From positions 1 to 64,000 of the forward strand of contig NZ_ATJV01000049.1 in NCBI RefSeq assembly GCF_000443165.1: 64,000 bases of DNA. The letters run 5' to 3'. Positions 7,392 through 39,486 of this stretch are shown one piece after another; positions within the stretch are counted from its first letter, which is position 1; every line of letters begins with the position of its first letter. A program made the translations under genes and the position numbers. Below the pieces are notes generated by a model that was given only the letters and a program-made list of their open reading frames with translations, was not told the DNA's origin and made no database searches. The stretch is from Thauera terpenica 58Eu. GTDB taxonomy: Bacteria; Pseudomonadota; Gammaproteobacteria; Burkholderiales; Rhodocyclaceae.

Positions 7392-7418
7392 GGCAGATTC
7401 CGTAAATATCTTCGAAGG

Positions 7419-8660
7419 CTAACAGCCCACGCGTCGAGTGTCCTGTGCAGACTCAACAGTCGTCAGCACACGGATGAGGAGCGGAATCAGAAAACGCAAG
7501 CCACTAAGCTTCAACGCGCGCGACAACACAGCGCTTGCGAGCAGGCGGCGCAGAAAAAAGGTGAGCCGCAGCGCAGCGCCATGGTGCAACAGTGGAGAAT
7601 ACTGAACTCCAAATGTGTCGACCAAGGCGGCAGGACTCAGGAAACAAACGCTAGGGTGGCGCCTCACTACGCCGCGCAGCGCGCTGACGAGTTCGTTCAG
7701 TGCCTGCTCGGCAGGTTCTTGCGCAGCAATGAAACTCTCGCGATGCGTCTCAATCAGAGCCGGACGCCCCAAGGCCGTACGCTCAGCGACGCCCTGCCAC
7801 ACCTGCTCGGCGCGGTGACCGCGAACAGGCTCGAAATAAACATCCCGCACCAGGTAGCGGATATCACCGAACCCGTGCTGAGCATTGAAGAGCTCTCGTG
7901 TGGGCGGCATGAGGCCACCGTCTGCGCTTCGCCCCTCGTACTGCCGGCCACAGCTGACGACACAACGCACCCCATCTGCTGCCCAGGCTCGCTCAACGGC
8001 AGCACTCCAGACGAAGGTGTTGGGCACTGCAACTTTGGGCCGCTCACCAAAAATGCGCTCAAAAACCTCCCCCTCTTCCCTGACCGCAGCTTCGATCTCA
8101 GCGTCAGGCAAGGCGCTGCTGGGCAAGACGGTGGAATCGACCCATCGGCTCTGCAGGGCCGATGGCAGACGCTCACTGCGCGCATCCGGGTCAGCCAGCC
8201 AGCGCCGCAGTTCGAGATCGTCGCGCGCGCGCCCTAGCAGGGATGCCGGCCAGAAGTGCTCAAGCCCATGTCGCTGCACACTAAAGACGCCCTTGTTGCA
8301 GCCCGCGCGCATAGCCTCGACGATGGGCGCGTACGCATCTTCGTCGAGCAGGCGACGATGGTAGCGCTGGCAGTCATCTGCAAGGATCGCCGCGCCGTCA
8401 GGCTTGCCGAGCACCACGCCAAGCGTCATTAGCGCCGGACGACCTTCCCGATCGCAAATATCGGCCAGTTGCTCTGCGATACGCCGCAGCATCAGCGCAT
8501 CGGAAGCCGGACCCGGGCCCCAGTCGTCACTCTCGATGATGACGACGGGACGAGCGAACACGGGCTCTCGCCACAAAGCCCGCAGCACGCGCGCCTGAGG
8601 CGCCAGAAGCGCAGCGGTGAGCGCCAACCATATCAGCACAAAAAAGGCGAATGTGCTCAC
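7419..8660 (-). CDS. Membrane-anchored CE4-like (NodB-fold) deacetylase-related protein
   Basis: The protein has 413 residues and one N-terminal membrane anchor (about residues 3-25). It then carries the pieces of a carbohydrate esterase 4 active site: an acidic ESDDWG motif (D45, D46), an HxxxH metal motif HGLEH (H131, H135) and a late histidine in ETHRESF. The spacing differs from classical NodB proteins, so this is a divergent member, and a role in removing acetyl groups from a surface polysaccharide is inferred. It is the first gene of a minus-strand run that continues through the GT4, TPR, GtrB-like, RffC-like, GtrA-like and wecE genes. A divergent asparagine-synthase-like gene starts about 125 bp away. 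Confidence 0.6.
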   Translation of the reverse strand: MSTFAFFVLIWLALTAALLAPQARVLRALWREPVFARPVVIIESDDWGPGPASDALMLRRIAEQLADICDREGRPALMTLGVVLGKPDGAAILADDCQRYHRRLLDEDAYAPIVEAMRAGCNKGVFSVQRHGLEHFWPASLLGRARDDLELRRWLADPDARSERLPSALQSRWVDSTVLPSSALPDAEIEAAVREEGEVFERIFGERPKVAVPNTFVWSAAVERAWAADGVRCVVSCGRQYEGRSADGGLMPPTRELFNAQHGFGDIRYLVRDVYFEPVRGHRAEQVWQGVAERTALGRPALIETHRESFIAAQEPAEQALNELVSALRGVVRRHPSVCFLSPAALVDTFGVQYSPLLHHGAALRLTFFLRRLLASAVLSRALKLSGLRFLIPLLIRVLTTVESAQDTRRVGC

Positions 8661-8786
8661 GGGGTCGCCGGTCCGACTCTACGAGGGACGGGCGTTTCAA
8701 CACTGCACGTGATGTGCTGGGCACTTGCTGTAGGTGACATGGGCTAACATGACGGCCGATTCAATGACTTGCGGCATTCTAGAGCG

Positions 8787-10637: not shown

Positions 10638-10650
10638 TCGACGGGCCGCA

Positions 10651-10692
10651 AGATCACCGCCCTGCCCGTAAGCACGGTCAGGGCGGTGATCT
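10651..10692. terminator. Hairpin between convergent genes, probable bidirectional terminator
   Basis: A perfect 14-bp inverted repeat (10651-10664 with 10679-10692) is extended by an inner CCGT/ACGG pairing after one mismatch, giving about 18 paired positions and a 4-base loop. It starts 13 bp after the asparagine-synthase-like stop and contains the last codons and stop of the opposing O-ligase gene. There is no clear T-tract on either side, so it may act as an RNA-stabilising or pausing hairpin rather than a classical terminator. Confidence 0.6.
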
Positions 10693-11979
10693 CGTGGTAG
10701 CAAGCATTTCCTCGGAGGGATTCTTGCGCAGATCATCCATTGGCAGCAATCGTCGCGGCGGCATTTTGACCAATTTCGGCAATTCATGTTTTACCAGCGC
10801 GCCGGTAATAACGACAATCACGATCAGGTGATAGAAAAGATCGAAGTATTGCAGCCCGAGAAAGGACCCGGCAGACATATAGCCGATGAGGCTGACCTGC
10901 ACCATGGCCGAAAGGTCTCTCGCCCAGGCGAGCTCTTCGTGCGGTTTCGAAAGACGAATGATCTGCGCCGCCGAGCGCCAGGTGAAGATATGCAGCAGCA
11001 CGAACATGCATAGACCGATCCAGCCCAATTCACCCAAGGCGCCAAACCAGTTGCTGTGAGAGTCGGTTCCACCATAGCCCGTCACCGCGCGGAAACCACC
11101 ACCAAAGAAGTTCATATTGGCCAGCTCGATGGCATTTCCCCACGCATAGATCCGTCCCATTGCGGACGCATCCTCCTCATAGCTCTCTATGGTGTGCATG
11201 CGATCGAACCATTCCGGCGGCATCACATACAACACCACTAAAGCAACCGGAATCAGAGCCAGGATGATGCCGAAACGGTTACGTGCCTTCATCAAGAAGA
11301 AGAGACCGGTTGCCAGCAGTCCTAGCAGCGCCCCACGCGAGTTCGTGCCGATGATCGCGATCAAGGTCAGGGCACCCGCCGCGAGCAGTGCCGGTTTTTG
11401 CCAGGCCTGTGTGGCCTGAATGCGTACGTACCAAAGCAGCGGCACCGTCATCAGCAATGCCAGGGCGACAGAGTTGCGATCCTCAATGAAAGACCCACCC
11501 GGCCCCATGACGTTATTGCCGCTCCCCCCCGTCAGCACGAAAAGGCCGCCTTTCACGCCATAGAACGCCAGTGACAGCGAGATGACGACAATCAGCCAGT
11601 ACAGCCGCTCACGACTGTTTATGACCAGCATGGTCACGAAGGTCATCAGCATGATTCGCCAGACCTTGTCCCATTGTGGCCAGGCCAGTTCGGGATACAT
11701 GGCAAGCAGGGTGGAGATGAACATCCAGGCAGTGAAGATCAGTAGCAGCTTTGTTTCACGCGTCCAGATGAATTCCTTTTTTTCACGAGAGATTGCAATT
11801 GCAGTGAAGGTCACCAAGGCCACAATGAGCGCAAACGGCATGGAGGTCGAAAACCCCCACGCCAGCCGGTGCGGGTTCATATAGCCCAGCCAGCACCACA
11901 CCAGGATTCCGATCCATGGTCGCCAGAAAATGAAGGGCAGCGTCCCGAACACCGCCAGCGTGACGATTATGTCGCGCAT
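10678..11979 (-). CDS. Exosortase-A-associated O-antigen ligase/polymerase-like membrane protein (TIGR03097-type)
   Basis: This 433-residue protein has about ten to twelve hydrophobic helices and the features of the Wzy_C/O-antigen ligase superfamily, with a large periplasmic loop between about residues 270 and 320 (GRIYAWGNAIE, GYGGTDSHSNW). It resembles the putative O-glycosylation ligase specific to exosortase A loci. It probably polymerises or transfers the exopolysaccharide in the periplasm; acceptor and linkage are unknown. It is the last gene of the XrtA run: its start overlaps the end of the PaaK-like gene by 13 bp, and its stop lies inside the strong hairpin. Confidence 0.85.
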   Translation of the reverse strand: MRDIIVTLAVFGTLPFIFWRPWIGILVWCWLGYMNPHRLAWGFSTSMPFALIVALVTFTAIAISREKKEFIWTRETKLLLIFTAWMFISTLLAMYPELAWPQWDKVWRIMLMTFVTMLVINSRERLYWLIVVISLSLAFYGVKGGLFVLTGGSGNNVMGPGGSFIEDRNSVALALLMTVPLLWYVRIQATQAWQKPALLAAGALTLIAIIGTNSRGALLGLLATGLFFLMKARNRFGIILALIPVALVVLYVMPPEWFDRMHTIESYEEDASAMGRIYAWGNAIELANMNFFGGGFRAVTGYGGTDSHSNWFGALGELGWIGLCMFVLLHIFTWRSAAQIIRLSKPHEELAWARDLSAMVQVSLIGYMSAGSFLGLQYFDLFYHLIVIVVITGALVKHELPKLVKMPPRRLLPMDDLRKNPSEEMLATTRSPP

Positions 11980-13340
11980 GAAGCCCCCGACGCGTCCACC
12001 TTGCTGAGCACGTAGCGATACTTGCCGGATTTCTCCGGCGCAATCTCATTCACTTCCTCGACCTCGATGTGCACCCCTTCACCCAGGCGCGCCGCCAGGC
12101 CGCGCTGGATGTGGCGCGTGATGTCGGCATCGAAACCCGGCCCCGGCACCACCTGCACGCGCGTAAGGTCCAGGCTCTCCTGCATGATCTTGAACCCCGC
12201 CACCTGCGGCAGGTCGCGCAGGATGTAGATCAGTGCCAGGCCATGCATCACCGTGCCGTCGCGGGCGACGACGAAGTCCGTTGCCCGGCCCTGGATCTCC
12301 TTGAGCATGGGCAGGCCGCGGCCACAGGCGCAGCTTGCGGTGTCCATGACGGCGACGTCACCGGTGCGATAGCGGATGAAAGGAAAGTCGCCGGTGGCGA
12401 GGTGGGTGACCACGATCTCGCCAGCCTCGCCCGCAGGCAGCACGCGACCGTCAGCGTCGACGATCTCGACGATGATGTCCTCGGCGGTCAGGTGCATGCC
12501 CCCCGACGGGCATTGATGGGCGATGAAGCCGGCGTCGCGCGAACCATAGCCGTTGGCCACCGCGCAGCCGAAGATGCGTTCGATAGCCTCACGCTGGTGA
12601 TCGTAGAGTTTTTCCGAGGTGCAGAAGGCGACCTTGATGCCGAGTTCGTCCATGCGCATACCGCGCTTTTCGGCGTGGCGGGCGATATGCGACAGCGCCG
12701 AAGGGTAGCCGAACAGCATCTTCGGGCGGCGCTCGCGAATGCGGGCGACAAAACCATCCAGCTTGGCTGCAGACATCTCGAAGGCGGGCAGCAGCTCGGT
12801 GCGCAGCAAGGTGTCGCGCAGCGCACGCACGCGGTCCTGCGCAGTGAGTTCGATCGGCGAGCCCCAGACCACGATCTCCGGGTCGCCGATATCCACACCC
12901 CACCAGCGCGTGGCGCGCCATTTGGCGGCGACGTCATGGCTGACACGCTGATTGCCGATGAAGAAGATCAGCGGCTCGCCGCTGGAGCCGCCGGTATTGA
13001 AGCGCGCCAGACCGACCGCATTGTCGGCTTTCAAGGCATCAGGATTGGCACGGATTTCAGCCTTGCCCAGGAAAGGCAGGCGCTGCAGGTCGGCCAGGCT
13101 CGTCACCGCTGCAGGCTCGAAGCCCGTACGCGCGAACAGCTCGCGGTAGTAAGGCACGTGCTGCTGGGCATGTTGCAGCAGACTGCGCAGACGCTGGAGC
13201 TGCAATTGCGCCAGGCGATCAGGGCTCCACCACTGCGTTTGTTCGAGTTGCTTGCGCACGACGACGGTGTCGTGGTGCTTGAGGCGCTCGTGCAGCGGGA
13301 ACACCAGCCCCGAGACCGCGCGCGTATAGAGGCTGTTCAT
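11967..13340 (-). CDS. PaaK/CapK-family adenylate-forming ligase
   Basis: This 457-residue member of the phenylacetate-CoA ligase/CapK family of adenylate-forming enzymes has the P-loop-like NTGGSSGEP (115-123), the core motif GYGSRDAG, the RYRTGD signature and the hinge region GRATDF. Cysteines near HQCPSGG and in SCACGRG could form the zinc site seen in some PaaK relatives. CapK-like proteins recur in capsule and exopolysaccharide loci, where the activated acid is usually unknown. Here it may supply an acyl or amino-acid substituent for the polymer. It is 14 bp downstream of xrtA. Confidence 0.85.
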   Translation of the reverse strand: MNSLYTRAVSGLVFPLHERLKHHDTVVVRKQLEQTQWWSPDRLAQLQLQRLRSLLQHAQQHVPYYRELFARTGFEPAAVTSLADLQRLPFLGKAEIRANPDALKADNAVGLARFNTGGSSGEPLIFFIGNQRVSHDVAAKWRATRWWGVDIGDPEIVVWGSPIELTAQDRVRALRDTLLRTELLPAFEMSAAKLDGFVARIRERRPKMLFGYPSALSHIARHAEKRGMRMDELGIKVAFCTSEKLYDHQREAIERIFGCAVANGYGSRDAGFIAHQCPSGGMHLTAEDIIVEIVDADGRVLPAGEAGEIVVTHLATGDFPFIRYRTGDVAVMDTASCACGRGLPMLKEIQGRATDFVVARDGTVMHGLALIYILRDLPQVAGFKIMQESLDLTRVQVVPGPGFDADITRHIQRGLAARLGEGVHIEVEEVNEIAPEKSGKYRYVLSKVDASGASCAT

Positions 13341-13354: not shown

Positions 13355-14950
13355 TCAGCGCGCGGAGGTCAGCGCGAGCATGGCGACCAGGGAGTCGCCC
13401 ATGTCGGCAACAAAGCGCTCGAGGGTAGTGGCGGCGGCGTCGTGCTCACCTTCGACGTAGGGCGCATAGACCATCACCGCGGCCGAATCGTCGCCTTCGC
13501 CTCTGAGCTTTGCCAGCGCCAGATAGACCTTGGCCAGGTAGTCGCTGGTGGTCCAGCGCCCGCCCACCCAGTAAGCACTCCACACGATCATGCGGCCGTG
13601 TGCGCTGACCATCTCCAGGCTGGCCCATGTCTGCTCATCCCCATCCAGCTTGACGAGCGGACTGCCCGAAGCCGTGCGTGTCCACACCGGGTCCTTGCTG
13701 ATGAGCACGCGGTTCTCGGAGTTGATCAACTCTTCGCCGGGCTTCTGGTCGCGGTAATAGGCAATGTAGAGACCGACCGGACGGTCCGCCCCGCTCCACG
13801 CCGCGCGGTATTCGCTGCGCATGCCCGAATAGCTCGGCGACCACACGGGCAAGAGCGCGACATCAGCCGGCGCGAAATTGGCGTGGGAGGCGAGCTGGGC
13901 AAACTGCACTGGCCCGTGCTCGCCCTGGCGATCGAGATAGGCCAGCAGCGGATTCCACAGGCTGACCGCTGCCAGTGCTACCGCCAGCATGGCGAATCTG
14001 CTGCTCGTGCCGGCCTCAGGACCCGTCCCGTCCAGCGCATGCGATGTCGACACCGGCGCCAGCTCCTCGTCTTCCTGCCAACGCGAACCGATCCAGAACA
14101 GCGCCATGATGATGATGCCGAAGAACACCCAGCCATACACCAGGTGATCGGCGCCAGCGGCCAGCTTGTTGCTGCTGAGGTGGCCGAGCATGACGATGCC
14201 GTAGGCGCGCAGCCAGTTGGCAAAAATGGGAACGATGATGGAGGCCACGACGAAAAGCAGGCGCTTTTGTGTGCTGCGATAGTTGAGGTAGGCATACAGG
14301 CTGCCGACCACGATCGAGGCCATCAGGTAGCGCACGCCGCTGCAGCCCTCCACCACCTGCCAGCGTCCGGACGGAATCACCAGATTGTAACCTTCGGCAT
14401 ACACCGGCACGCCAGAGGCGCGCACCGCCCAGATGATGAAGTGGGTGGTCCAGTCCATCATGGTCGGAAACAGGAACTCACCGAACGGCACCATGAAGAA
14501 CAGGAAGCCGATCGGGAACGCATAGGTGCGCACCACCGCCGTGCCCATGACCGCCCACACCAGACCGACCAACATGCCGACGAAAGCGAACTGCGACACC
14601 GCATCGACACTGGCCAGCTCACCCAGCAGCCAGGCCGCCCCGGCGCCGAGGCCGATGACGATGCCAATCAGCGACGACGCGATCGGCACGCCATGAATGA
14701 AGTGGCGACGCCGCCAGATCAACCAGACCGAGATGGGCGCGATCACATAGCCGTGGGCGAAGGTGTCGGAGCGCTCCCAGATGTCGACCATCGCCATCAG
14801 CGTGTCGCGATACCAGAACGCGAACCACAGCAGGCTCGCGGCCAGCACCAGCAGGTGAAGCCTGCGCGCCGCCGGGTCGCCGACATCCGCCGCTGCCTGC
14901 CGAGCGCTGCCCGGATGAAGTGAATGCATGACCAGTCCTTGTGTATTCAT
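13355..14950 (-). CDS. xrtA: Exosortase A with C-terminal EpsI domain
   Basis: Exosortase A is the multi-spanning transpeptidase that sorts PEP-CTERM proteins. The N-terminal half (about 30-300) has at least eight helices and the sortase-like catalytic set: C203 in VVEGCSGVRY, R248 in NWLRAY and H257 in MLGHLSS. The C-terminal part (about 330-531) is a periplasmic EpsI-like domain with WSPSYSGMR and KVYLALAKL, the normal fusion in XrtA proteins. The start is set at the ATG overlapping the upstream glycosyltransferase stop by 4 bp; a second in-frame ATG follows 7 codons later. The position in the middle of an exopolysaccharide operon is characteristic. Confidence 0.95.
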   Translation of the reverse strand: MNTQGLVMHSLHPGSARQAAADVGDPAARRLHLLVLAASLLWFAFWYRDTLMAMVDIWERSDTFAHGYVIAPISVWLIWRRRHFIHGVPIASSLIGIVIGLGAGAAWLLGELASVDAVSQFAFVGMLVGLVWAVMGTAVVRTYAFPIGFLFFMVPFGEFLFPTMMDWTTHFIIWAVRASGVPVYAEGYNLVIPSGRWQVVEGCSGVRYLMASIVVGSLYAYLNYRSTQKRLLFVVASIIVPIFANWLRAYGIVMLGHLSSNKLAAGADHLVYGWVFFGIIIMALFWIGSRWQEDEELAPVSTSHALDGTGPEAGTSSRFAMLAVALAAVSLWNPLLAYLDRQGEHGPVQFAQLASHANFAPADVALLPVWSPSYSGMRSEYRAAWSGADRPVGLYIAYYRDQKPGEELINSENRVLISKDPVWTRTASGSPLVKLDGDEQTWASLEMVSAHGRMIVWSAYWVGGRWTTSDYLAKVYLALAKLRGEGDDSAAVMVYAPYVEGEHDAAATTLERFVADMGDSLVAMLALTSAR

Positions 14951-16056
14951 GTTGCGCGCTGCCTCCGGATGGCCCCGATGGTCTCCGTGTAGGTGGCGAG
15001 CAAAGCGTCGCGCACCGCTGACCATTGATAGCGCTGCACCTCGGCCAGCCCGGCGGCGACAAGCCGCGAGCGCAAGTCGTGGTTCTCCAGCACTTCGATC
15101 GCGGCCGCGGCCATCGCCTCAGCGTCATCGACCGCCACCAGCATGGCCGTGTGGCCATCCTTGACCATGAAGGGGATGCCGCCCGCGCGCGTACTGACCA
15201 CCGGCACACCGCTGGCCAGCGCTTCAAGCAAGGCATTGGGCATGTTATCAACGCGACTGGCGTTGAGCATGAGATGTGCATCACGGTAGAGCGCAGCCAT
15301 CTGCTCGCGATCGAGCCGCCCGCTGAAGCGCACCTGCGCGGCAATGCCCAGGCTTTGCGCCAGCTCGGCGAGCGCAGCCGCCTCTGGGCCTGAACCGGCG
15401 ACGGACAGGCGCGCGCCGGGAAAGCGCGCGAGTATCCGTGCAAACGCCTGCAGGGCGACGTCGTTGCCGTAGATCGGCTCGAGGTTGCGCGCCACCACCA
15501 GATGCGGACCCGGGCTGAGCGCTGGCGGGGTGGCGTCAGGATGGAAGCGCTCGAGATCGATGATGTTGGCCACGATGCGCCCGTCCATGCCGTGGCGCGC
15601 GAACACTTCGAGCAAAAAGGCCGACGGCAGCACCAGCGCACCCGCGCGCCGCATGCTGGGACGCACCCAGCGCCCGGCTCGCTGCAGGAAGGCATCCGCC
15701 TCGCCGCCGCGGTAATTGACCACCACTGGCGTGCCCCGCAGCGCCGCAATCCACACCGCGGGCGCGGCGAACAGGTGCCAGGACCAGCCGGAGTTGGCCA
15801 TCACGTGCACGACATCGGCGCGCCCGCAGCCACGCCACAAATGGAGCAGATAGGGCAGCAGCCGGAACAGCGCGCGCACACCCTTGAGACGCTCGGCCCA
15901 TGCCGGACGATAAGGCGCATTGACCTGCACGACCTCGACCTGCGCGCCTTCTGCACGCAGCAGCTCGGCGAGCTGGCGAGTCTGGTTGGCCATGCCGCCG
16001 GCCGGCGGTGGCAATGGGCCGACGAGAAGGACGCGGAGAGCAGAGAACTTCATCAC
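14947..16056 (-). CDS. GT4 family glycosyltransferase of the XrtA locus
   Basis: This GT-B glycosyltransferase has 369 residues. It begins with the strand LRVLLVGPLPPPAGG and its glycine-rich acceptor loop, has VVARNLEPIYG at the start of the donor domain, and has a donor-site DNMPNALLEALASG in place of the usual E-x7-E (an acidic residue remains in LLEA). Such GT4 enzymes build the oligosaccharide repeat on the cytosolic face of the membrane. The stop overlaps the xrtA start and the start is 62 bp from the stop of the next upstream gene, so the operon continues through it. The sugar is unknown. Confidence 0.85.
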   Translation of the reverse strand: MMKFSALRVLLVGPLPPPAGGMANQTRQLAELLRAEGAQVEVVQVNAPYRPAWAERLKGVRALFRLLPYLLHLWRGCGRADVVHVMANSGWSWHLFAAPAVWIAALRGTPVVVNYRGGEADAFLQRAGRWVRPSMRRAGALVLPSAFLLEVFARHGMDGRIVANIIDLERFHPDATPPALSPGPHLVVARNLEPIYGNDVALQAFARILARFPGARLSVAGSGPEAAALAELAQSLGIAAQVRFSGRLDREQMAALYRDAHLMLNASRVDNMPNALLEALASGVPVVSTRAGGIPFMVKDGHTAMLVAVDDAEAMAAAAIEVLENHDLRSRLVAAGLAEVQRYQWSAVRDALLATYTETIGAIRRQRAT

Positions 16057-30231: not shown

Positions 30232-30861
30232 TTAGAACCAGCTTTGCGGAATGATGAGCACGTCGCCCGGACGCATCTCGACATTGGCCGACACGTCGCC
30301 GCGCTTGATGAGGTCACGAATGCGCACGCTGTACTGCTTGTTGCCTTCGGTGGTGCGCAGGATGGTGGCGCCATTGCCATCGGCAAAGTCCGTGATGCCG
30401 CCGACCGCAATCATGACGTCGAGCAGCGTCATCTTCTGCTTATACTGCAACACCTGCGGATTTGCAGCCTCGCCCACGACGCGGATCTGCTCGCTGTAGG
30501 GGCCGACGAAACCGGTGACGATGACGGTCACGACAGGGTCGCGGATGTACTTGGACAGCGCTTTCTCGATGTCACGCGCGAGCGTGCTCGAATCCTTGCC
30601 CAGGGCCGGAAGGTCCTCGACCAGCGGAGTGGTGATCTTGCCGTCCGGGCGGACCGGCACGGACAGCGACAACTCGGCGTTGCGCCACACCACGATGTTG
30701 ACGTTATCACCCGGTCCGATCACGTAGTTATACTCAGAGTCGGCAGCAGCCACCGGTGCCGGAGGGTAAGAAGTGGCACAGGCAGAAAGAAGCGCCCCTG
30801 CAAGCAACATGAGCGCGAAGCTCAAGAACTTGCTGCAGATACTCGAAGTTTTTTGCATCAT
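30232..30861 (-). CDS. XrtA system polysaccharide export lipoprotein (Wza-like, TIGR03027-type)
   Basis: This outer-membrane export protein has 209 residues. A lipoprotein signal peptide ends in the lipobox LLSAC (about 24-28), then comes the Poly_export domain starting YVIGPGDNVNIVVW and one SLBB-type domain (IRVVGEAANPQVL) ending RPGDVLIIPQSWF. It forms the channel for the exopolysaccharide and is the first gene of the XrtA operon. A GGGGGAG ribosome binding site lies about 7 bp upstream of the first of two adjacent ATG codons. Confidence 0.95.
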   Translation of the reverse strand: MMQKTSSICSKFLSFALMLLAGALLSACATSYPPAPVAAADSEYNYVIGPGDNVNIVVWRNAELSLSVPVRPDGKITTPLVEDLPALGKDSSTLARDIEKALSKYIRDPVVTVIVTGFVGPYSEQIRVVGEAANPQVLQYKQKMTLLDVMIAVGGITDFADGNGATILRTTEGNKQYSVRIRDLIKRGDVSANVEMRPGDVLIIPQSWF

Positions 30862-31093
30862 GTTCCGACTCCCCCAGGATTCATAGCCGTCTATGATACG
30901 ACGACAAGCCTCAGCGAAATGCTACGAAGCTGTGTAATATGACTCTAGGAACAAATGCACACAATCGCTCATATCGTCTTGTGTGCTCGCTCGTTACAGT
31001 CGCGGGGTTTTGCCACGATAGAAGCTCTCGCACAGCGCTGCGCTGACGTCCGCCAAGGGCACAACCGAACGAAAGCGAAGGATCGCCTCAATC
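30862..31093. other. Divergent intergenic region at the head of the XrtA operon
   Basis: These 232 bp separate the export lipoprotein gene (minus) from the acyltransferase gene (plus) and must carry the promoters of both. Visible items are the ribosome binding site of the export gene, a weak minus-strand TTGTCG/TATGAA pair with 16-bp spacing, and a perfect 8-bp dyad listed separately. I found no convincing sigma-54 site and no gene. Confidence 0.6.
30957..30986. promoter_or_regulatory. Perfect 8-bp inverted repeat, candidate operator
   Basis: The arms GCACACAA (30957-30964) and TTGTGTGC (30979-30986) are exact reverse complements separated by 14 bp. The spacing of about two helical turns, centre to centre, suits a dimeric regulator. 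It sits between the divergent acyltransferase and exopolysaccharide genes. No protein is known to bind it; the call rests on symmetry and position alone. Confidence 0.4.
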
Positions 31094-31885
31094 ATGGACG
31101 CTTTTTCACAGCGCCAAACTGCCTATATGGCGACAAACTCAGACCGCACTCGCGCATGGCTTCCCGGTAGCTCGGGACGCAACCGGGGCCTGCCGGACAA
31201 GCAACGCAGCGCGACGGGAGCTGTGCGCTTGAATCCTGATTTCAAGCTCATGCGTAACGGCTATGAAATCCGGATCGCCAATGGCCTTGAGGCGCTCAAA
31301 CGCAACACCGCCCGCCTCATCGAGCGCATGTATTCGTCGCGCGGCCTCTTCCCTTACGGCCAGGGAGAGAGCCTGGACGAACGCAACATCACGGTGGTGG
31401 CGTGCAAGGGCGACTGTGCGGTAGCGACTTTGACCTTGTGTCTTGATGTTGGCGCAGGTCTGCTAGCTGACACACTCTATCGCGACGAGATCAATGCCGC
31501 ACGTATAGCCGGCAGCCGAGTGTGCGAAATCACACGCTTGGCGATGGATCCTGAGCACAGCTCGCATGAAACCCTGGCGGGAATGATGCAGGTTCTTTAC
31601 GTTCTTGCACGCCTCACCCATCAGGTCACAGACGTGTTCATCGAGGTGCACCCGCGCCACGCCGGCTTTTACCGCCGCCTCCTCGGGTATAACGTGGCGG
31701 GTCCGGAGCGAATCTGCCCACGGGTGGGTGCTCCGGCCGTGTTGATGCATCTGTGCCAGCACCAGCTCGACACGCTGATCGACAAGCACGCCGGCAGATC
31801 CGATGATGATTCGCGCAGCTTCTACCGTCTGTTCCCGCCGCGCAGCGAGCTCGAAGACATCCAGCGCTCGCTGACGAACGTCTGA
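31094..31885 (+). CDS. PEP-CTERM/exosortase system-associated acyltransferase (FeeM/autoinducer-synthase-like)
   Basis: This 263-residue member of the GNAT/N-acyl amino acid synthase superfamily has YEIRIANGLEALK at about 56, MYSSRGLFP near 80, VCEITRLAMDP near 140 and VFIEVHPRHAGFYRRLLG near 180, the pattern of the TIGR03694/FeeM group related to acyl-homoserine-lactone synthases. FeeM enzymes join an acyl-ACP chain to an amino acid. The product here is unknown, and it could be a signal or a membrane lipid. The N-terminal 50 residues are basic and unusual, so a downstream start such as the ATG in LMRNGYE is conceivable. Confidence 0.82.
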   Translation: MDAFSQRQTAYMATNSDRTRAWLPGSSGRNRGLPDKQRSATGAVRLNPDFKLMRNGYEIRIANGLEALKRNTARLIERMYSSRGLFPYGQGESLDERNITVVACKGDCAVATLTLCLDVGAGLLADTLYRDEINAARIAGSRVCEITRLAMDPEHSSHETLAGMMQVLYVLARLTHQVTDVFIEVHPRHAGFYRRLLGYNVAGPERICPRVGAPAVLMHLCQHQLDTLIDKHAGRSDDDSRSFYRLFPPRSELEDIQRSLTNV

Positions 31886-31891
31886 CCCGAG

Positions 31892-33214
31892 TCAGAACCA
31901 GCGCCGAACCTCCAGATAGACACGATCCCGGTCGTCGAAGCGACCGAACAGGCCTGCGTCCGGGCCATGAAACACATCCACCCCGGCGACTGCCCGCCAC
32001 TCGGGCGCAAACTTCCAGCTCGCCTTGGGGCGCAGCATGTAGTCACTGCGATTCAAGCTGGTGGCGGCCATGAGCTCAAGCTCGACATCACTGCCGATTT
32101 CGCGCACGAGCTGCAGCGTCATGCCGCGCTCTTCACGATCCACGCCCATCAGCCTGTCGTGGTCATCGAGCCAGCGCGCAAAGTACTGCAGGTTCAGGCG
32201 CCATACATCCTTGAGCGGAATATCGACGCCAAACGCGTAGTCGATCATGTCGGTCTCCTGCAGACCCAGCATGCCGCCCTGGAAGGTATTGAGGCTGCGT
32301 CCATGAGTGTGCACTGCCTCGCCCTTGAGCACGAAACGACCCATATCCTTGCTGAAGGTGGCACCGAACTGGCCAATACGCTCATGCGTCAGCTCCAGGC
32401 CTGAGCTGACCGGGTCGACGCCGAGTGTGGGCGAGATGTCGTTGCTGCGGTAATAGAAGGCACTGGTGTCCCAGCCCGCGATCAGCTTGGACACACGCAG
32501 GCCCCAGTTGCTGTTCGACAGGCGGGTTGAAGGCTCACGTTCGCTCACCGGCGTCCCCGCCACCAACCGCGGATAGGGGTAGAAGTCCGACCCCGGCTTG
32601 CCGATATCGTCATAGCTCGGACTCGGCACCCACACCATCTCGAAGTGCGTATCGCCCGCGAAGTACTCGGCACGCGCCGCCCACTGCCCGATGCGGATGG
32701 TTTCGAGCTCGGGCAGCACGAAATCGCGCATATCGCGCGCCGAAACCACGTCGGCGAAGAAGAAGCCGACCATTTCACCCCAGATGATGTGCTGGCGACC
32801 GAAGCGGAACTCCCAGTCGCCCGCCCCCACATCCACCCAAGCCTCACGCACGATGGCATCGCGTCGCCGATCATTGCGCACGGCAGACGGGTAGTAGGCA
32901 TCCTCGAGATCGAAAGCGCCATCGGCATCGCCGCGTGCCGACAGCTTCCAGCGCGAACGCGTACCCAGCTTGCCCGTTGCCGAGAGCTCGAGGCGCGCGC
33001 GCAGACGCGACCAGCGCTCGTCCTCTGCATACGTGTAGGCGCCCCCCAGTTCACCATAGCCGGAGAACTTGATAGCGCTCCCACCCTCAGCGGCGGGCTC
33101 GAGCTCGAACAGCGCATCAAGGTCGGCGTCCTCACCCCCATCGTCGGCCGCGAACACGGGCAACGCACAGGACGTGCACAAGAGCGCCAGCACGGCGCGT
33201 CGAATCATGGACAT
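31892..33214 (-). CDS. Outer membrane beta-barrel protein (DUF1302-like)
   Basis: This 440-residue protein has a signal peptide (IRRAVLALLCTSCALPVFA), an acidic spacer and then strand-rich sequence. The FRFGRQHIIWGE motif near 130 resembles DUF1302/porin-like proteins, and the C terminus VYLEVRRWF ends in Phe. It is 9 bp downstream of the ABC ATPase gene and converges with the acyltransferase gene at a distance of 6 bp. In related genomes such barrels accompany ABC-type envelope transporters and LolA-like proteins; substrate unknown. Confidence 0.7.
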   Translation of the reverse strand: MSMIRRAVLALLCTSCALPVFAADDGGEDADLDALFELEPAAEGGSAIKFSGYGELGGAYTYAEDERWSRLRARLELSATGKLGTRSRWKLSARGDADGAFDLEDAYYPSAVRNDRRRDAIVREAWVDVGAGDWEFRFGRQHIIWGEMVGFFFADVVSARDMRDFVLPELETIRIGQWAARAEYFAGDTHFEMVWVPSPSYDDIGKPGSDFYPYPRLVAGTPVSEREPSTRLSNSNWGLRVSKLIAGWDTSAFYYRSNDISPTLGVDPVSSGLELTHERIGQFGATFSKDMGRFVLKGEAVHTHGRSLNTFQGGMLGLQETDMIDYAFGVDIPLKDVWRLNLQYFARWLDDHDRLMGVDREERGMTLQLVREIGSDVELELMAATSLNRSDYMLRPKASWKFAPEWRAVAGVDVFHGPDAGLFGRFDDRDRVYLEVRRWF

Positions 33215-33223: not shown

Positions 33224-33973
33224 CTACACTTCAGGATCGACATCGCCCTTGGGACGACGATCATTGACGAACACCCACTGATCGCCCGAACGCATGCCGA
33301 GCGCGGTGATCTCACCATCCGCGATGCGCACAAGGCGATCGGCCATGTTCATGACCTTGCGATCGTGGGTGGAAAAAACAAAAGTGGTGCCCGAGTGGCG
33401 GTTGATCTGCCGCATCAGCTTGAGAATGCTCGACCCCGTCTTGCTGTCGAGGTTGGCCGTGGGCTCATCAGCGAGCACGATCTTGGCGTTGGTGACGAGC
33501 GCGCGCGCGATGGCGACACGTTGACGCTGGCCACCGGACAGCTGATTGGGGCGATGGGTCGCGTACTTGCTCAGACCCACGACCTCAAGATAGTGCTTGA
33601 CGCGCTCGTGCCGCTGCGCCTTCGTCAACTCCCTGAACTGCAACAGCGGGTATTCGACATTTTCTTCGGCAGACAGCACGGGCAGCAGGTTGAAGGACTG
33701 GAAAATGAAACCGATGGTGCGCGAGCGCAGCTCGGCGAGTTGATCGGGAGTGCGCCCCGACACATCGTGGCCATCGACAACAACCTGGCCGGAAGTAGGC
33801 GTATCGATGCATCCGATGATGTTGAGCAGTGTAGACTTGCCGCTACCCGACGGTCCGGCAATGGCCAGGAACACCCCGGGCTCGATTGCCAGCGACACAG
33901 CGGTCAGGGCTCTGACGTCCTGATCCCCCAGGCGGTAGTGCTTGCTGACGTTTTCGACCCGGACGATGGCCAT
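33224..33973 (-). CDS. ABC transporter ATP-binding protein (LolD/MacB type)
   Basis: This 249-residue ATPase has Walker A GPSGSGKST, Q-loop IFQSFNLLPVLSA, signature LSGGQRQRVAIARAL, Walker B IVLADEPTANLD and the H-loop STHD. The GCIDTPTSGQV context and the length put it with MacB/LolD/FtsE-like ATPases, which pair with FtsX-fold permeases that work on outer-membrane-directed substrates. No such permease gene is adjacent on either side, which is unusual. I took the ATG giving MAIVRVENVSKHY as the start; a 14-codon upstream extension lacks the family pattern and would run into the divergent gene. Confidence 0.9.
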   Translation of the reverse strand: MAIVRVENVSKHYRLGDQDVRALTAVSLAIEPGVFLAIAGPSGSGKSTLLNIIGCIDTPTSGQVVVDGHDVSGRTPDQLAELRSRTIGFIFQSFNLLPVLSAEENVEYPLLQFRELTKAQRHERVKHYLEVVGLSKYATHRPNQLSGGQRQRVAIARALVTNAKIVLADEPTANLDSKTGSSILKLMRQINRHSGTTFVFSTHDRKVMNMADRLVRIADGEITALGMRSGDQWVFVNDRRPKGDVDPEV

Positions 33974-34017
33974 CTGTACGGTCACGATGTTATGGAAACG
34001 CCAAAAGGATAGCATCC

Positions 34018-34839
34018 ATGAGCCAAGTCATGAGCCCCGCGATGAGCCTCGAACACCGACTGCGCCGCCGTTTCCTCGCCTTGCTGGCGAGCGCGCTCCT
34101 GTTACCGAACTGGGCCCAGGCGCAGGATGCGGACGCCACCCCGGCACAGGAGCCGACGGCCGACGCCGAAGCCCTGGAGATCGTCATGCGCGCCGACGAG
34201 ATCCGCTTCCCGCGCGACAGTTTCCAGACCGAGATCGCCGTGCGCAATCTGAGCGCTGGGGAACAGAACGATGAGCGCAAGTTCCGCGTCCTCTCCCGCG
34301 GCAACGAGAACACCATCGTGCTGAGCACCGAACCCGCTTCCGAGCGTGGCCAGGCCCTGCTGATGCGTGGACGCGACCTGTGGATCTTCATGCCCAGCGT
34401 GTCTCAGCCGGTGCGCCTGTCGCTCGCCCAGCGTCTCACCGGCCAGGTCGCCAACGGCGATCTGGCGCGTGCCAACCTTGCGGGTGATTACATTCCGACC
34501 ATCATCGGCCGCGAGGAACTCGACGGGCAGGCAGCCGTCGTCCTGAGTCTGAGCGCGGTAGACCGGGGAGTGACGTATTCCAAGGTCAAGTACTGGGTCG
34601 CCGAAAAGGACAGCCGTCCGCTCAAGGCCGAGTTCTACGCGCTCTCGGGGCGCCTGCTCAAGACTGCGCGCTACGAGGAATTCAAGGACATGGCAGGACG
34701 TCTGCGCCCCACCCGCCTGGTGCTGGAAGATGCGCTCAGGGCAGGTGAGGTGTCGGTTTTGACCTACGAGACCATGAGGCTCCGCGACCTGCCCGAGCGC
34801 ATGTTCACGCGCGAGTACCTGCGCCGGCTTGAACAGTAA
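34018..34839 (+). CDS. Outer membrane lipoprotein-sorting protein (LolA-like)
   Basis: This exported protein has 273 residues, a signal peptide (RRRFLALLASALLLPNWAQA) and a LolA/LolB-like lipid-carrier fold. RKFRVLSRGNENTIVLSTEP, MLMRGRDLWIFMPS and GRLRPTRLVLEDAL are the repeating strand patterns of the outer-membrane lipoprotein-sorting family. An AAGGA ribosome binding site 8 bp upstream supports the ATG at 34018; later in-frame ATG codons follow. It is divergent from the ABC ATPase with only 44 bp between them. It probably carries a lipid or lipoprotein across the periplasm. Confidence 0.85.
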   Translation: MSQVMSPAMSLEHRLRRRFLALLASALLLPNWAQAQDADATPAQEPTADAEALEIVMRADEIRFPRDSFQTEIAVRNLSAGEQNDERKFRVLSRGNENTIVLSTEPASERGQALLMRGRDLWIFMPSVSQPVRLSLAQRLTGQVANGDLARANLAGDYIPTIIGREELDGQAAVVLSLSAVDRGVTYSKVKYWVAEKDSRPLKAEFYALSGRLLKTARYEEFKDMAGRLRPTRLVLEDALRAGEVSVLTYETMRLRDLPERMFTREYLRRLEQ

Positions 34840-34884
34840 GCAACGCGGATGCACCCCCGGGCTCATGACATATAGAATTTCGTG

Positions 34885-36294
34885 ATGAACCCGAAAATCA
34901 TCCATCACGGCGCGAAGCACGGCGTCACCGGCTCGTGCCATCAGCTTTTCATCGACGGCGAGCGCAGCGTCCTGATCGACTGCGGCCTGTTCCAGGGCGC
35001 AGAAACCGCGCCCGACGGCAGCGCTGGCGCGGACCGACTCGACATCCCCTTTGCGGTAAAGGATGTCGGCGCCCTGGTGCTGACCCACGTCCACATCGAC
35101 CACTGCGGCCGCCTTCCATGGCTGCTGGCGGCGGGGTTCAAGGGGCCGATCTTTTGCAGCGAACCCTCGGCACGCCTACTGCCCACCGTGCTCGCCGATG
35201 CCTTCCAGATCAGCGTCACGCGCGACCGCATGCTCGTCGAACGCTATCTGCAGATGGTGGAGGCGCGCCTGCGCCCGCTGCCTTACCGTCACTGGCACAC
35301 GCTGTACCGCAGCGCCGACGCCACCTGCCGGGTCCGCCTGCAACGCGCCGGCCACATCCTGGGTTCGGTCTACGTCGAGTTCGAACTCTCGGGCAAGGCC
35401 TGGCCCCAGCGTCGACGCGTGCTCTTCTCCGGTGACCTGGGCGCGCCCCATGCCCCCCTGCTGCCCGCGCCGCGCCCGCCCTGGCACGCTGACATCGTGG
35501 TGCTGGAGAGCACCTACGGCGACCGCGTGCATCAAGACCGGCGCCACCGCCGCGAACGCCTGCGCGAGGTGATCGAACAGGCACTGGAAGACGGCGGCAG
35601 CGTCATCATTCCGGCCTTCAGCATTGGCCGCACGCAGGAACTGCTCTACGAGTTTGAAGACATCCTTCACCGCCAGCGGCGCAAGCCCGGGCGCCATGCC
35701 GCACGCTGGGAGGCCTTGAAGATCTATCTTGATTCACCCCTGGCCGGCCGCTTTACCGAGCTCTACCGTGAGCTCCAGCCCTTCTGGGACGATGAGGCCA
35801 AGGCCAGGGTTCGCGCCGGACGTGAGCCGCTGAACTACGAGCAACTGGTCGCCATCGACGGCCACGACGCCCATCTGGCCAATGTGCGCCGTCTGGCGCT
35901 CAGCGCCGAACCCGCGATCGTGATCGCCGCGAGCGGAATGTGTGCGGGGGGCAGAGTCGTGAATTACCTCAAGGCCATGCTGGGCGATGCCCGCCACAAT
36001 GTGCTCTTCGTCGGTTACCAGGCACGCGGCACGCCCGGCAACGCCATCCAGACTTTCGGTCCGCGCGGTGGTTACGTCGAGTTCGATGGCGAGCGCATCA
36101 CCATTCGCGCCGGCATCCACACCCTGTCGGGCTACTCCGCGCACGCCGACCGCGACGATCTCACCCGCTTCATCACGCGCATGCGCCATCTGCCGGGCGA
36201 AGTGCGGCTGGTGCATGGAGAAGACGAAGTGCGTGCCGCGTTCGCAACCCACCTTTCACGCGCAACGGCGGGCAAAGTGCGCGTGCTGGTCTGA
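34885..36294 (+). CDS. MBL-fold beta-CASP ribonuclease
   Basis: This 469-residue metallo-beta-lactamase-fold nuclease has HVHIDHCG (H68, H70, D72, H73) and the beta-CASP signatures LESTYGDR, IPAFSIGRTQELL, SGMCAGGRV and SGYSAHAD, which place it with RNA-specific exonuclease/endonuclease proteins of the CPSF73/YsdC kind. The RNA target is unknown. I used the ATG at 34885; a GTG immediately before it is possible. A TATAGA box lies only about 10 bp upstream, so the transcript could be nearly leaderless. Its stop abuts the stop of the opposing response regulator. Confidence 0.9.
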   Translation: MNPKIIHHGAKHGVTGSCHQLFIDGERSVLIDCGLFQGAETAPDGSAGADRLDIPFAVKDVGALVLTHVHIDHCGRLPWLLAAGFKGPIFCSEPSARLLPTVLADAFQISVTRDRMLVERYLQMVEARLRPLPYRHWHTLYRSADATCRVRLQRAGHILGSVYVEFELSGKAWPQRRRVLFSGDLGAPHAPLLPAPRPPWHADIVVLESTYGDRVHQDRRHRRERLREVIEQALEDGGSVIIPAFSIGRTQELLYEFEDILHRQRRKPGRHAARWEALKIYLDSPLAGRFTELYRELQPFWDDEAKARVRAGREPLNYEQLVAIDGHDAHLANVRRLALSAEPAIVIAASGMCAGGRVVNYLKAMLGDARHNVLFVGYQARGTPGNAIQTFGPRGGYVEFDGERITIRAGIHTLSGYSAHADRDDLTRFITRMRHLPGEVRLVHGEDEVRAAFATHLSRATAGKVRVLV

Positions 36295-37677
36295 TCACTC
36301 CAGGTCCCATTTTTGCAGGCGGTAGCGCAGCTGGCGCAGGGTCATGCCCAACTGGCGCGCGGCCGCACTCCGGTTCCAGCGCGTTTGCTCGAGCGCCTCC
36401 AGCACCCGCAAACGCTCGAGCTCGCTGTCCGCCTCGGGGCCGTAGTCATCCACCCCCGCCTCGATTGCTGACACACCTGCAGCATCCGGCACCGACTGCG
36501 AAAAGTCGGTCGCTTGCAGGTCGATATCCGCGCCCCCGATCTCATCGCCATCACACAGGGCGCAGGCACGCTCGAGCAGGTTCTCCAGCTCGCGCACATT
36601 GCCTGGAAAGGTGTGCGCTTGCAGCACATGCAGCGCCTCGGCGGACAGGCGATGCGGAGCGCTGCCCTCGCGCTCGGCAAGGCGGGCAAGAATATGCTCC
36701 ACCAGGGCGGGGATGTCTTCACGCCGCTCACGCAGGGGCGGCACGCGCAGGGTGATGACATTGATGCGGAAAAAAAGATCGTGCCGGAACCGGCCCTCGG
36801 CAACGAGCCGCGAAAGATCCTGGTGCGAAGCCGACAGGATGCGCACATCCACCGCCTCCTCCGCGTGCGCGCCGACTGGCCGCACCGCGCGCTCCTGAAT
36901 GGCACGCAACAGCTTCACCTGCATCGACAAAGGCAGCTCGCCGATTTCGTCGAGAAACAGGGTGCCACCGCTGGCCGCCTGGAACAGCCCTTCCTTGTCG
37001 CTCGCCGCGCCGGTGAAGCTGCCCTTGCGGTGACCGAAGAACTCACTCTCCATCAGTTCGGGAGAGATTGCACCGCAGTTGATCGGCACGAAGGGCGCCT
37101 GGGCGCGCGCGCCGAGCGCATGGATGAGGCGTGCAATGACCTCCTTGCCCGTGCCCGACTCGCCATGAATGAAGACCGGCGCCTGATTGCGCGCGAGCTT
37201 TTCCGCTTGCGCTCGCAAGTGCCGAAAGGCGGGAGAGTCGCCGATCAGGCCACGATCGCCGGACACGCTCGCAGCGCCCCGCGGCTCCAGCTTGAGGGCG
37301 TGATTGACCAGCTCACGCAGCACCTTGAGTTCGATCGGCTTGGTGACGAAATCGAACGCGCCCAGCTTGAGGGCACGAATCGCCGTGTCTATGCTGCCAA
37401 AGGCGGTGATCACCGCCACCGGCAGGCCCGGAAGATGCTTCTGAATGTACTCGACCAGGTCGAGTCCATCGCCGTCCGGCAGACGCATGTCAGTCAGGCA
37501 CAGACGATAGCGCTGGCGCTCGAGGCAGGCACGGGCTTGCGTCACCGAAGCGGCGGTGTCGCAAGCCAGCCCCATGCGCAGCAGGGAGAGCTCGAGCAGT
37601 TCGCGGATGTCGTCCTCATCGTCGACAACGAGGACATCAACGGACTCAGGGCGGTTGCGGCGTTCGCGAATGGTCAT
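36295..37677 (-). CDS. Sigma-54-dependent response regulator (PilR/NtrC family)
   Basis: This 460-residue regulator has three domains. The receiver has phospho-acceptor D63, the AAA+ domain has Walker A GESGTGKE (172-179) and the sigma-54 contact loop GSFTGA (219-224), and the Fis-type DNA-binding helix-turn-helix ends the protein ([18 protein letters not shown]). The GSFTGA variant and the domain order match PilR, which activates type IV pilin transcription, but no pilin gene is near. The start overlaps the sensor kinase stop by 4 bp, so both are one operon. Confidence 0.88.
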
Positions 37678-39242
37678 GGTCTCTGGTGTCCGGCAAGGAC
37701 GAAGTCGGCACCGCAAGTGCTCGCGGCGAGCTCGAGCGTCGCATCGTTGGCCTCGGCCAGCTCGCGCGCGATGTACAGGCCCAGGCCTGTACCCTTGGCA
37801 TGGCTGGTGAAAAAGGGCTCGAACAGATGACGGCGTTGGGCGGCGTCAAGACCTGGGCCGTCATCACGTACATGCAGGGCAACGCGCTCTCCCGCGAGCG
37901 CCACCGCCTGCAAGTGCACGGCCGCCGCCGTGCCCGAGCAGTAACGCCGCGCATTGGCAAGGAGATTGTCGAGGATCTGGTGGAGGTGCGCACGGTCGAT
38001 GGCAAAGCTCAGCCCCGGATCGATGTCCACCCGATAAAGCTCGCGCTCCGCCGGATCTCGAAACACGCGCGCATCGATCACCTCGGACACGAACTCGGCC
38101 AGCGGCAGCGCCTCGGGCTGGGCCTGCTCACGGCGACCGAGGGCAAGCACATCGCGAATCATGCGTTCGATACGCTGGGCATTGTCGTTGATGATCCGTA
38201 TCAAACGCGCCTGCATCTCGCTGCGCTTTTCCTCACGCAGGAGCTCGGCGGCCTGGGACACGGCCGACAGCGGATTGCGGATCTCATGCGCCATGCTCGC
38301 AGTCAGGCGGCCCAGCGCAGCAAGCTTGATCTGCTGCAACTCACGCTGAATATCTTCGAAGTCGGTAAAGTAGATGAGGCTATCACCCGCCGCCACGCTA
38401 CCCGGCTCGCCACACACCACACGACAGCGCAGCAGGCGCCCGCCCGGGCCAAGGCGCAGCAGGCGGTATTCGGCAGCGCGCTGGCCCATGAGGGTGTCGA
38501 AGGCCGGGTCGATATCCACCAGGCGCACGCCTTCAAGCGCCCCCACCCCACTGCCGTCCATGCCGAGCAGGATCGCGGCCTGCGGATTGGACTGCAGCAC
38601 CAGGCCATTGTCGCCGGCAACGATCACACCATCTTCCATGTCGCGGATGATGCGTTCATTGAGCGCCTGCTGCTGGGCCAGAGCGTCGCCGCGCTCGGCC
38701 GCCAGCGCCGCCTGCGCCTGCGCGCGCGAAGCGAGCAGGCGTGCGACGATGGCAATGCCGAAAAAGCCCGTGCAGAAAATCCCCACCTGGAGGAAATCGA
38801 CCGGCCGCCCGCCCACCACCAGGCGCCAGGCGTTTTCGATCAACACCGCGATGGTCGCCAGCGCAGCGAAGAACAGAACCAGGCGCCCTTCCGCAACCAG
38901 ACCGGCACCCGCCAGCACCACCATGATCAGGACCGGGATGCCGCTGCTGTAGCCGCCACTTGCCCACATGATGAGGGACAGCGCCACGACGTCGATGACG
39001 ATCTGCAGCGCAGTCACCCGCGGCGTGCCGAAACGTGCGGCCACCTCCCGAAAGCCCAGCCCGAAGGCGGCGCCCAGGTAGCCCAGGGCAACAATGCGAA
39101 ACACCAGGGGGGCCTCGTCACCGAGTCCGAGATCGCGCCCGGCAACAACGAACAGGCCCGCCAGCACCAGCCGAAAAAGATTGAAAAAGCGCAGCGAGGT
39201 ATGACGCGAGCGCTCCGTTGCCGCGGGCACAGCAGCGCTCAC
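37674..39242 (-). CDS. PilS-like sensor histidine kinase
   Basis: This 522-residue membrane kinase has six hydrophobic helices (about 18-170), a PAS-like domain (about 198-300), an H-box ASMAHEIRNPLS with H319, and an ATPase domain with N-box LDNLLANARRY, DDGPGLD and GTGLGLYIARE. This is the layout of PilS. I chose the GTG at 39242, two bases after the stop of the small PP0621-like gene, because the upstream extension overlaps that gene and lacks hydrophobic sequence. The partner is the sigma-54 regulator directly downstream. Confidence 0.85.
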   Translation of the reverse strand: MSAAVPAATERSRHTSLRFFNLFRLVLAGLFVVAGRDLGLGDEAPLVFRIVALGYLGAAFGLGFREVAARFGTPRVTALQIVIDVVALSLIMWASGGYSSGIPVLIMVVLAGAGLVAEGRLVLFFAALATIAVLIENAWRLVVGGRPVDFLQVGIFCTGFFGIAIVARLLASRAQAQAALAAERGDALAQQQALNERIIRDMEDGVIVAGDNGLVLQSNPQAAILLGMDGSGVGALEGVRLVDIDPAFDTLMGQRAAEYRLLRLGPGGRLLRCRVVCGEPGSVAAGDSLIYFTDFEDIQRELQQIKLAALGRLTASMAHEIRNPLSAVSQAAELLREEKRSEMQARLIRIINDNAQRIERMIRDVLALGRREQAQPEALPLAEFVSEVIDARVFRDPAERELYRVDIDPGLSFAIDRAHLHQILDNLLANARRYCSGTAAAVHLQAVALAGERVALHVRDDGPGLDAAQRRHLFEPFFTSHAKGTGLGLYIARELAEANDATLELAASTCGADFVLAGHQRP

Positions 39243-39243
39243 C

Positions 39244-39486
39244 TCAGTCGTCTCGCGGCCCGGCAAGACGATGAGCCGGACAGCAGTAGAAGCGCGTGCC
39301 TTCACGTAAGCCATCGGATTCGGGCACGTTGATGCCACAGTGCGCGCACTCAAGGATGCGTTCGGGCGCCTCTGCCGCCTTGCCAGCGCGCGCAGCTGTT
39401 GCCGCCCTTTCCTTCGCCCGCGTCAGCGCACGCTGAACCCACCAGACACCGGCCACAACGAGGATGAGGAGGAGCAGATTACGCAC
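39244..39486 (-). CDS. PP0621-family small membrane zinc-ribbon-like protein
   Basis: This 80-residue protein has one N-terminal membrane helix (NLLLLILVVAGVWWV), a basic Ala-rich linker and a C-terminal cysteine cluster CAHCGINVPESDG followed by FYCCPAHR, which could bind a metal. The family is widespread next to pilS/pilR-type genes, and its function is unknown. It starts with GTG at 39486. It is the first gene of the kinase/regulator run. Confidence 0.75.
   Translation of the reverse strand: MRNLLLLILVVAGVWWVQRALTRAKERAATAARAGKAAEAPERILECAHCGINVPESDGLREGTRFYCCPAHRLAGPRDD

Follow-up and report, generated by a model that had tools for sequence, protein, structure and literature searches.

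N-acyl amino acid synthases are reportedly linked to the PEP-CTERM/exosortase system, to go by the title of Craig et al. 2011. In this study we describe the gene of a FeeM-type acyltransferase (hereafter FeeM) in a stretch of 64,000 nucleotides from Thauera terpenica 58Eu (the window; contig C49 of a 4.15-Mb assembly), where it stands divergent from an exopolysaccharide (EPS) operon of the XrtA/PEP-CTERM type. We consider it reasonably probable that FeeM acts as the synthase in a system for making and exporting a lipid that is associated with this EPS region, and that the gap between the divergent genes holds two promoter elements and no operator formed by the inverted repeat (dyad) found there. 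Thauera and Azoarcus are bacteria of wastewater and denitrifying communities.

The PEP-CTERM link of such synthases is already published, and it is restated in PMC7293339, where putative transporters of the stieleriacine cluster are also mentioned without a clear role. In the acyl-oxazolone (oxz/tyz) and dehydrotyrosine (stieleriacine, kyonggic acid) pathways, as excerpts of PMC10404671 and PMC12479983 present them, a synthase is combined with a ThiF protein and a nitroreductase. The PrsR/sigma-54 control sites of PEP-CTERM genes include a conserved upstream motif ending in TTTACA, according to portions of Haft et al. 2006 (PMC1569441). A limited search of the open-access literature found no paper that links an exporter to exosortase/N-acyl synthases.

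The acyltransferase beside the exopolysaccharide operon

The FeeM open reading frame (ORF; 263 aa, 31094-31885, + strand) matches a single Pfam family at E <= 0.001, namely PF21926 (FeeM), with 161.8 bits against a cut-off of 27. The best match of its AlphaFold model (pLDDT 81.6) in the Protein Data Bank (PDB) is FeeM itself (2g0b; E 3e-12, TM 0.83 by target length), at a structural identity of 22-25% to the known enzyme, and on both counts the initial annotation was right to call this a FeeM-type acyltransferase. Residues 1-41 are poorly modelled, and the matches of most relatives start after residue 41. E145, which is invariant across two alignments (25 and 41 sequences) and aligned with a Glu of FeeM, presumably corresponds to the catalytic Glu of that enzyme; in the parts of PMC4897644 that bear on it, changing its counterpart in Nas354, Glu103, to Ala abolished the haemolytic and surface-active phenotypes. 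Comparison with Thauera butanivorans, the closest named relative by FeeM protein (74% identity, among the loci of the best 80 of 578 relatives), gives dN 0.17, dS 1.10 and dN/dS 0.16 (NG86), or dN 0.16, dS 2.05 and dN/dS 0.08 (YN00), which indicates purifying selection on FeeM. The reaction proposed for the window protein is the N-acylation of an amino acid with a fatty acyl chain.

The product might instead be a diffusible, homoserine-lactone-like acyl signal serving quorum sensing, and not a structural or surface lipid, since the acyl-homoserine-lactone (AHL) synthase LasI is the 14th structural match of the model and BjaI is also among the matches. We regard this as improbable: the ORF has no match at E <= 0.001 to Autoind_synth (PF00765), the profile of LuxI-type AHL synthases, both its sequence and its fold are closest to FeeM, and it co-occurs with the exporter genes described below, which point to a transported lipid rather than to an acyl signal.

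FeeM faces a wza-like gene for an XrtA/PEP-CTERM exopolysaccharide export protein (30232-30861, - strand; TIGR03027, 238 bits, cut-off 180), which is taken as the first gene of the EPS operon, across a spacer of exactly 232 bp (30862-31093). This gene order was checked in the relatives, and the divergent arrangement recurs among them, in agreement with the initial annotation, which had FeeM facing the EPS operon. A plasmid search gave 6 records, the best match having only ~37% identity. By their profiles, the EPS genes on the - strand between 21897 and 30149 encode a chain-length determinant (TIGR03007), a tyrosine autokinase (TIGR03018), an outer-membrane protein (TIGR03016), an ATPase (TIGR03015), a UDP-GlcNAc 2-epimerase, a deacetylase (TIGR03006) and a FemAB protein (TIGR03019). 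Exosortase A (XrtA, TIGR03109) with an EpsI domain follows at 13355-15025 on the same strand. Together with the TIGR03007, 03015, 03016, 03018, 03019 and 03027 genes, it places the region among the XrtA/PEP-CTERM exopolysaccharide loci.

Exporter-like genes that accompany the synthase

On the far side of FeeM lie the other three genes of a four-gene cassette. They encode a predicted outer-membrane barrel of the DUF1302 type, whose gene is convergent with FeeM (31892-33214, - strand; PF06980, 43.3 bits), a LolD-like ABC transporter ATPase (33224-34015, - strand; PF00005, and TIGR02211 with 223 bits, cut-off 307.75) and a LolA-like periplasmic lipid/lipoprotein carrier (34018-34839, + strand; PF17131, 160.3 bits, cut-off 30). 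Across the genus, FeeM at no less than 50% identity is found in 15 of 29 genomes, and the cassette stays within that set, in counts that, like all our cross-genome counts save that of FeeM changes on a tree, ignore phylogeny. DUF1302 (at least 63% identity) occurs in 12 of the 29 genomes, all among the 15 with FeeM and none of the 14 others; the LolA-like gene (at least 71% identity) occurs in 11, all among the 12 DUF1302 genomes, and is missing from G166, perhaps because of a contig end. LolD co-occurrence was read from the loci, beside DUF1302. Four loci of other bacteria (L080, L098, L107, L124) combine FeeM, DUF1302, LolD and LolA with no match to the tested EPS genes in the fetched stretch, and neither DUF1302 nor LolD appears in the flanks of five Aromatoleum loci (L057, L058, L059, L062, L063).

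In the window, the surroundings of the LolD-like gene hold no recognised permease. Two of the loci from other bacteria (L098, L124) have LolC/E-type permeases and ThiF near the cassette, and the counterparts of these permeases in the window genome are on another contig, C56 (L223, C56:16000-31000; 5913-12404). There, a TIGR03694 acyltransferase (251 bits) is accompanied by two LolC/E-like permeases (97 and 104 bits against the lolCE model, cut-off 362), ThiF, a nitroreductase and an EDSAP-1 PEP-CTERM protein. The permease pair is found in 12/12 cassette genomes of the genus as opposed to 1/17 others (G172, 81% complete), with a Fisher probability of 2.5e-7 that is not corrected for phylogeny; the permease of G166 was counted from a contig-edge match, and a 39% match over ~163 aa in G154 was left out.

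In the wider family (150 genomes), an XrtA wza gene is present in 70 genomes, the permease (E < 1e-100) in 53 and both in 51, and in 15 the permease and wza are no more than 5.5 kb apart. FeeM adjoins wza in 21 of the family genomes. All 13 of these whose fetched 3.6-kb locus, within which DUF1302 status was read, shows DUF1302 also have the permease; in the other 8 it is absent from four (G086, G044, G137, G100) and present in four (G091, G031, G090, G075). Sixteen stretches were fetched at wza, several of them ended by contig ends, and in 8 of these permeases, DUF1302, LolD and LolA are clustered (G031, G109, G099, G012, G005, G118, G070, G112). The G031 cluster also has FeeM, ThiF and nitroreductase, and the stretch from G075 carries FeeM, permeases, ThiF, nitroreductase, DUF1302 and LolD. 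Because relatives thus hold permeases and cassette together at wza, the window genome appears to carry a single system in split form.

The LolD and LolA families handle lipoproteins in known systems. The Lol-like genes could accordingly act on lipoproteins, or on PEP-CTERM proteins, that belong to the EPS system, with FeeM co-occurring only through the shared XrtA region, and several observations fit this: 51 of the 53 permease genomes have XrtA wza, PEP-CTERM genes stand beside the permeases or the cassette, and in 13 of the 70 XrtA genomes the permease is present and FeeM gives no strong hit. We nevertheless think it unlikely, as cassette and permease pair are both lacking from all 11 genus genomes that keep wza without an adjoining FeeM, and within the genus the exporter hence tracks FeeM more closely than it tracks XrtA. 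In one of these 11 genomes (G152) the remains of a disrupted FeeM are found close to this position, and another (G162) has a 38% relative elsewhere. On a tree of wza and chain-length sequences from 23 genus genomes, FeeM presence requires 7 changes, 5 of them forced by well-supported branches, compared with 7.9 on average for shuffled labels; FeeM is therefore scattered almost at random, and gain and loss cannot be told apart from the tree.

Archaeosortases join proteins to lipids. By extension, the acyl lipid might serve exosortase A as an acceptor to which PEP-CTERM proteins become attached, the Lol-like machinery then moving the conjugate; the link of such synthases to PEP-CTERM/exosortase and the PEP-CTERM genes adjoining the cassette or the permeases would suit this scheme. 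Its chances appear minimal to us, given that 26 of the 70 family genomes with wza have no strong FeeM hit, counting FeeM hits alone, and the FeeM product hence cannot be a general acceptor.

A few loci show other combinations of these genes. In L107 (5857-11632), the ORFs for FeeM and the LolA-like protein share 4 bases, and after FeeM come genes for a sugar-amidotransferase-like protein (below cut-off), an acyl ligase and a thioester reductase. In two congeners without FeeM (G171:C1:2924348-2926766 and G158:C53:10556-12908) a diverged ThiF is near LolA-like and weakly DUF1302-like genes, and in three further congeners without FeeM (G174, G139, G156) similar places have a diverged ThiF near weakly DUF1302-like genes; these are perhaps a second type of this export system.

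The divergent spacer and its surroundings

The perfect 8-bp inverted repeat that the initial annotation saw inside the spacer is there, as GCACACAA-N14-TTGTGTGC with arms at 30957-30964 and 30979-30986. It had been taken as a possible operator at which a single regulator would act on feeM as well as on the EPS operon. The perfection of the repeat, the fact that its arms pair at one place only in the assembly (gap 10-18) and a 7-bp version in T. butanivorans speak for that reading. Taken merely as a dyad it is statistically weak, however: a perfect 8-bp dyad with a gap of up to 20 arises in 6.5% of 2000 spacer shuffles, and the window holds 40 such centres. Our sample comprised 46 FeeM-wza spacers (4 gave duplicate segments) and further genus members. 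With up to 2 mismatches the dyad is present in 2 of the 46 spacers, those of the window and of T. butanivorans; in the latter the arms proper have a length of 7 bp (GCACACA-N14-TGTGTGC) and lie at nearly the same position. The near-identical spacers L128 and L129 (G170 and G150) differ by 7 substitutions, 2 of which fall within the 14 arm positions, change both arms and do not compensate each other, and the left arm overlaps a conserved box on the wza side, being mostly the end of that box. Sought upstream of orthologous pairs, the dyad is not found in close relatives that share the gene order, which is the outcome that the initial annotation had itself named as refuting its proposal. We have therefore rejected the dyad as an operator: control of both transcription units through it is very improbable, and the repeat appears to be mostly a local accident. 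A short insertion in the window spacer was also considered, and was dropped after T. butanivorans aligned along the spacer.

What most of these spacers share is a composite element. Their alignment shows, in order, ATGCTA, then AGGAACAAnTACACAAnCGCTTACAGC, ~20 nt and TANAGT. The AGGAACAAATACACAA part is present within 4 edits in 39 of the 46 spacers, and at this limit it was not found in the remaining ones (L012, L026, L028, L032, L055, L060, L100). With up to 3 mismatches, a 26-nt core occurs in 14 of the 150 family genomes, once in each and always in the wza-FeeM gap, with 0 control hits and 0 in the window's own genome. At that stringency, to which the genome-wide search was limited, the motif has no regulon, and a shared regulon was rejected.

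The loci without FeeM beside wza, used as natural deletions, resolve the composite into two abutting boxes that overlap at ACACA. The wza-side box, AGGAACAAATGCACA in the window (30947-30961, - strand), is ~85 nt upstream of the wza-like start. In its general form, AGGAACAAWTRCACA with up to 3 mismatches, it is found where FeeM adjoins wza (19/21 family loci and 10/10 further genus loci), at all 11 genus wza loci without an adjoining FeeM, at 7/23 family wza loci with FeeM elsewhere in the genome and at 2/25 other family wza loci, and shuffles match it at 1-4%. In the 11 congeners without an adjoining FeeM, mean pairwise identity is 0.89 in the box versus 0.25-0.55 in windows that do not overlap it, the box figure being inflated because every sequence was anchored at the match that suited it best, and beyond +15 conservation is at chance (0.25-0.31). 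Since the flanking DNA has diverged, recent common descent by itself does not account for the persistence of the box. Conservation extends further in the 12 congeners with FeeM (0.52 at +15, 0.43 at +20).

The second box, on the FeeM side, is a degenerate copy in the window (30959-30974, + strand; 3 mismatches to ACACAANCGNTTACAG). ACACAANCGNTTACAG is found at 17/21 family and 9/10 genus loci with FeeM beside wza, as against 0/11, 0/23 and 0/25 of the wza loci without an adjoining FeeM. Where FeeM is not next to wza, the box precedes it in 2/65 cases, compared with 25/26 adjacent loci chosen for this comparison, and it does not, therefore, travel with FeeM alone. We assign the left box to the EPS operon and, in the adjoining arrangement, the right one to FeeM, and the two may well be abutting promoter elements. 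A -10-like hexamer, TACAGT (30995-31000, + strand), aligns with the TANAGT of the relatives, and the conserved ATGCTA on the wza side (30919-30924) reads TAGCAT on the - strand, a possible -10; both would have promoter roles. The suggestion that a lipid is made in step with EPS, perhaps under one regulator, fares differently in its two halves, as the conserved boxes keep co-expression plausible but do not establish a single regulator. An Rfam search of the spacer found nothing. Sigma-54/PrsR control was rejected for want of a -24/-12 site in the spacer: the only sigma-54-like site, at 31011, has 3 mismatches and lacks the GG, and such sites are no commoner than chance in the window.

The wider surroundings hold further genes. 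A beta-CASP nuclease-like protein and then a PilR/PilS-type pair (34882-39353) stand downstream of the cassette, and several relatives likewise have these genes close to wza or FeeM. The pair, an NtrC-type regulator and a kinase (36295-39353), was rejected as the EPS regulator and is read as PilR/PilS because the kinase has a PilS-type domain and the regulator scores 343.7 against a PrsR cut-off of 502.6. Two congeners without a match to the XrtA wza model, L011 (G048) and L138 (G151), keep FeeM beside a gene resembling this PilR-type regulator, and the G048 match has an internal TGA. Within the XrtA region are a PaaK-like AMP ligase (11967-13340) and a second asparagine-synthetase-like protein (8769-10637), the latter well below the XrtA amidotransferase cut-off.

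The proposed lipid system and its described counterparts

We propose that FeeM couples a fatty acyl chain with an amino acid, and that the ThiF/nitroreductase pair and the second synthase (TIGR03694), present in the window genome and many relatives, could alter the product or broaden its range. An ABC transporter of Lol-like type, made up of the LolD-like ATPase and the LolC/E-type permease pair from the other contig, might lift the lipid out of the inner membrane; the LolA-like protein would then carry it and the DUF1302 barrel receive it at the outer membrane, where it could accompany the exopolysaccharide and PEP-CTERM proteins. In the window genome, this system would be split over the two loci. 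A more specific version, which we offer only tentatively and with the chances somewhat against it, holds that this is a dedicated Lol-type pathway (LolC/E/D-like, LolA-like and DUF1302 proteins) whose cargo is an N-acyl amino acid or acyl-oxazolone lipid and not a lipoprotein, that it is gained and lost with the synthase beside the EPS operon, and that the polysaccharide of the matrix and a surface lipid are produced from one divergent control region.

A number of observations weigh against the proposed system. The LolD and LolC/E scores lie under the equivalog cut-offs, so that the proteins do not qualify as members of LolCDE, and the pairing of LolD with the permeases is drawn from co-occurrence in genomes where other LolC/E-like proteins exist. 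The permease genomes of the family that have XrtA and no strong FeeM hit, counted above, tell in the same direction. FeeM is found without the cassette in 3 of the 15 genus genomes (G154, G048, G151), and in G086, G044, G137 and G100 it is beside wza with no cassette seen within the 3.6-kb loci. ThiF (at least 63% identity) is present in only 9 of the 12 cassette genomes, there being no close copy in G150, G160 and G166, and relatives of it at 44-57% identity occur in 10 genomes without the cassette; for both reasons oxazolone chemistry would be optional at best. In the spacer, the boxes are missing from L026, L028, L032 and L100 and poor in L116 despite FeeM beside wza, the window's own FeeM-side box is degenerate, a scan restricted to spacings of 16-18 found no consensus sigma-70 promoter, and there is no sigma-54 -24/-12 site (GG-N10-GC).

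If the exporter is indeed co-inherited with the synthase, it would tell the destination of the product, the outer membrane or the matrix. The patchy occurrence of FeeM at a single promoter gap also amounts to a natural experiment on the assembly of divergent promoters.

Compared with described systems, the window enzyme resembles FeeM (2g0b) in sequence family, in fold and in the aligned Glu, and differs from it in adjoining an EPS operon with exporter genes and in its 22-25% structural-alignment identity. Like the synthases linked to PEP-CTERM/exosortase, it is found at a PEP-CTERM/exosortase region; TIGR03694, the NCBI model for the PEP-CTERM/exosortase-associated acyltransferase, is matched by the C56 gene and not by the window FeeM, which has no match to it at E <= 0.001. 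The C56 locus holds a synthase, ThiF and nitroreductase, as do the acyl-oxazolone and dehydrotyrosine pathways in the portions of the literature cited above, whereas the window FeeM stands apart from ThiF and nitroreductase, and a Lol-like exporter occurs alongside these two. With the PrsR/sigma-54 sites, as far as the quoted portions of their description go, the spacer shares conserved upstream DNA in XrtA/EpsH bacteria, with TTTACA there and TTACAG here; it differs in being without a -24/-12 site and in that its full element was found in the wza-FeeM gap alone. Finally, the ATPase, the FtsX/MacB-type permease pair and the LolA-like carrier, known here from their genes, recall LolCDE-LolA lipoprotein transport, from which the present genes depart in their sub-equivalog scores, in their distribution over two loci, and in being joined by a DUF1302 barrel and acyltransferases.
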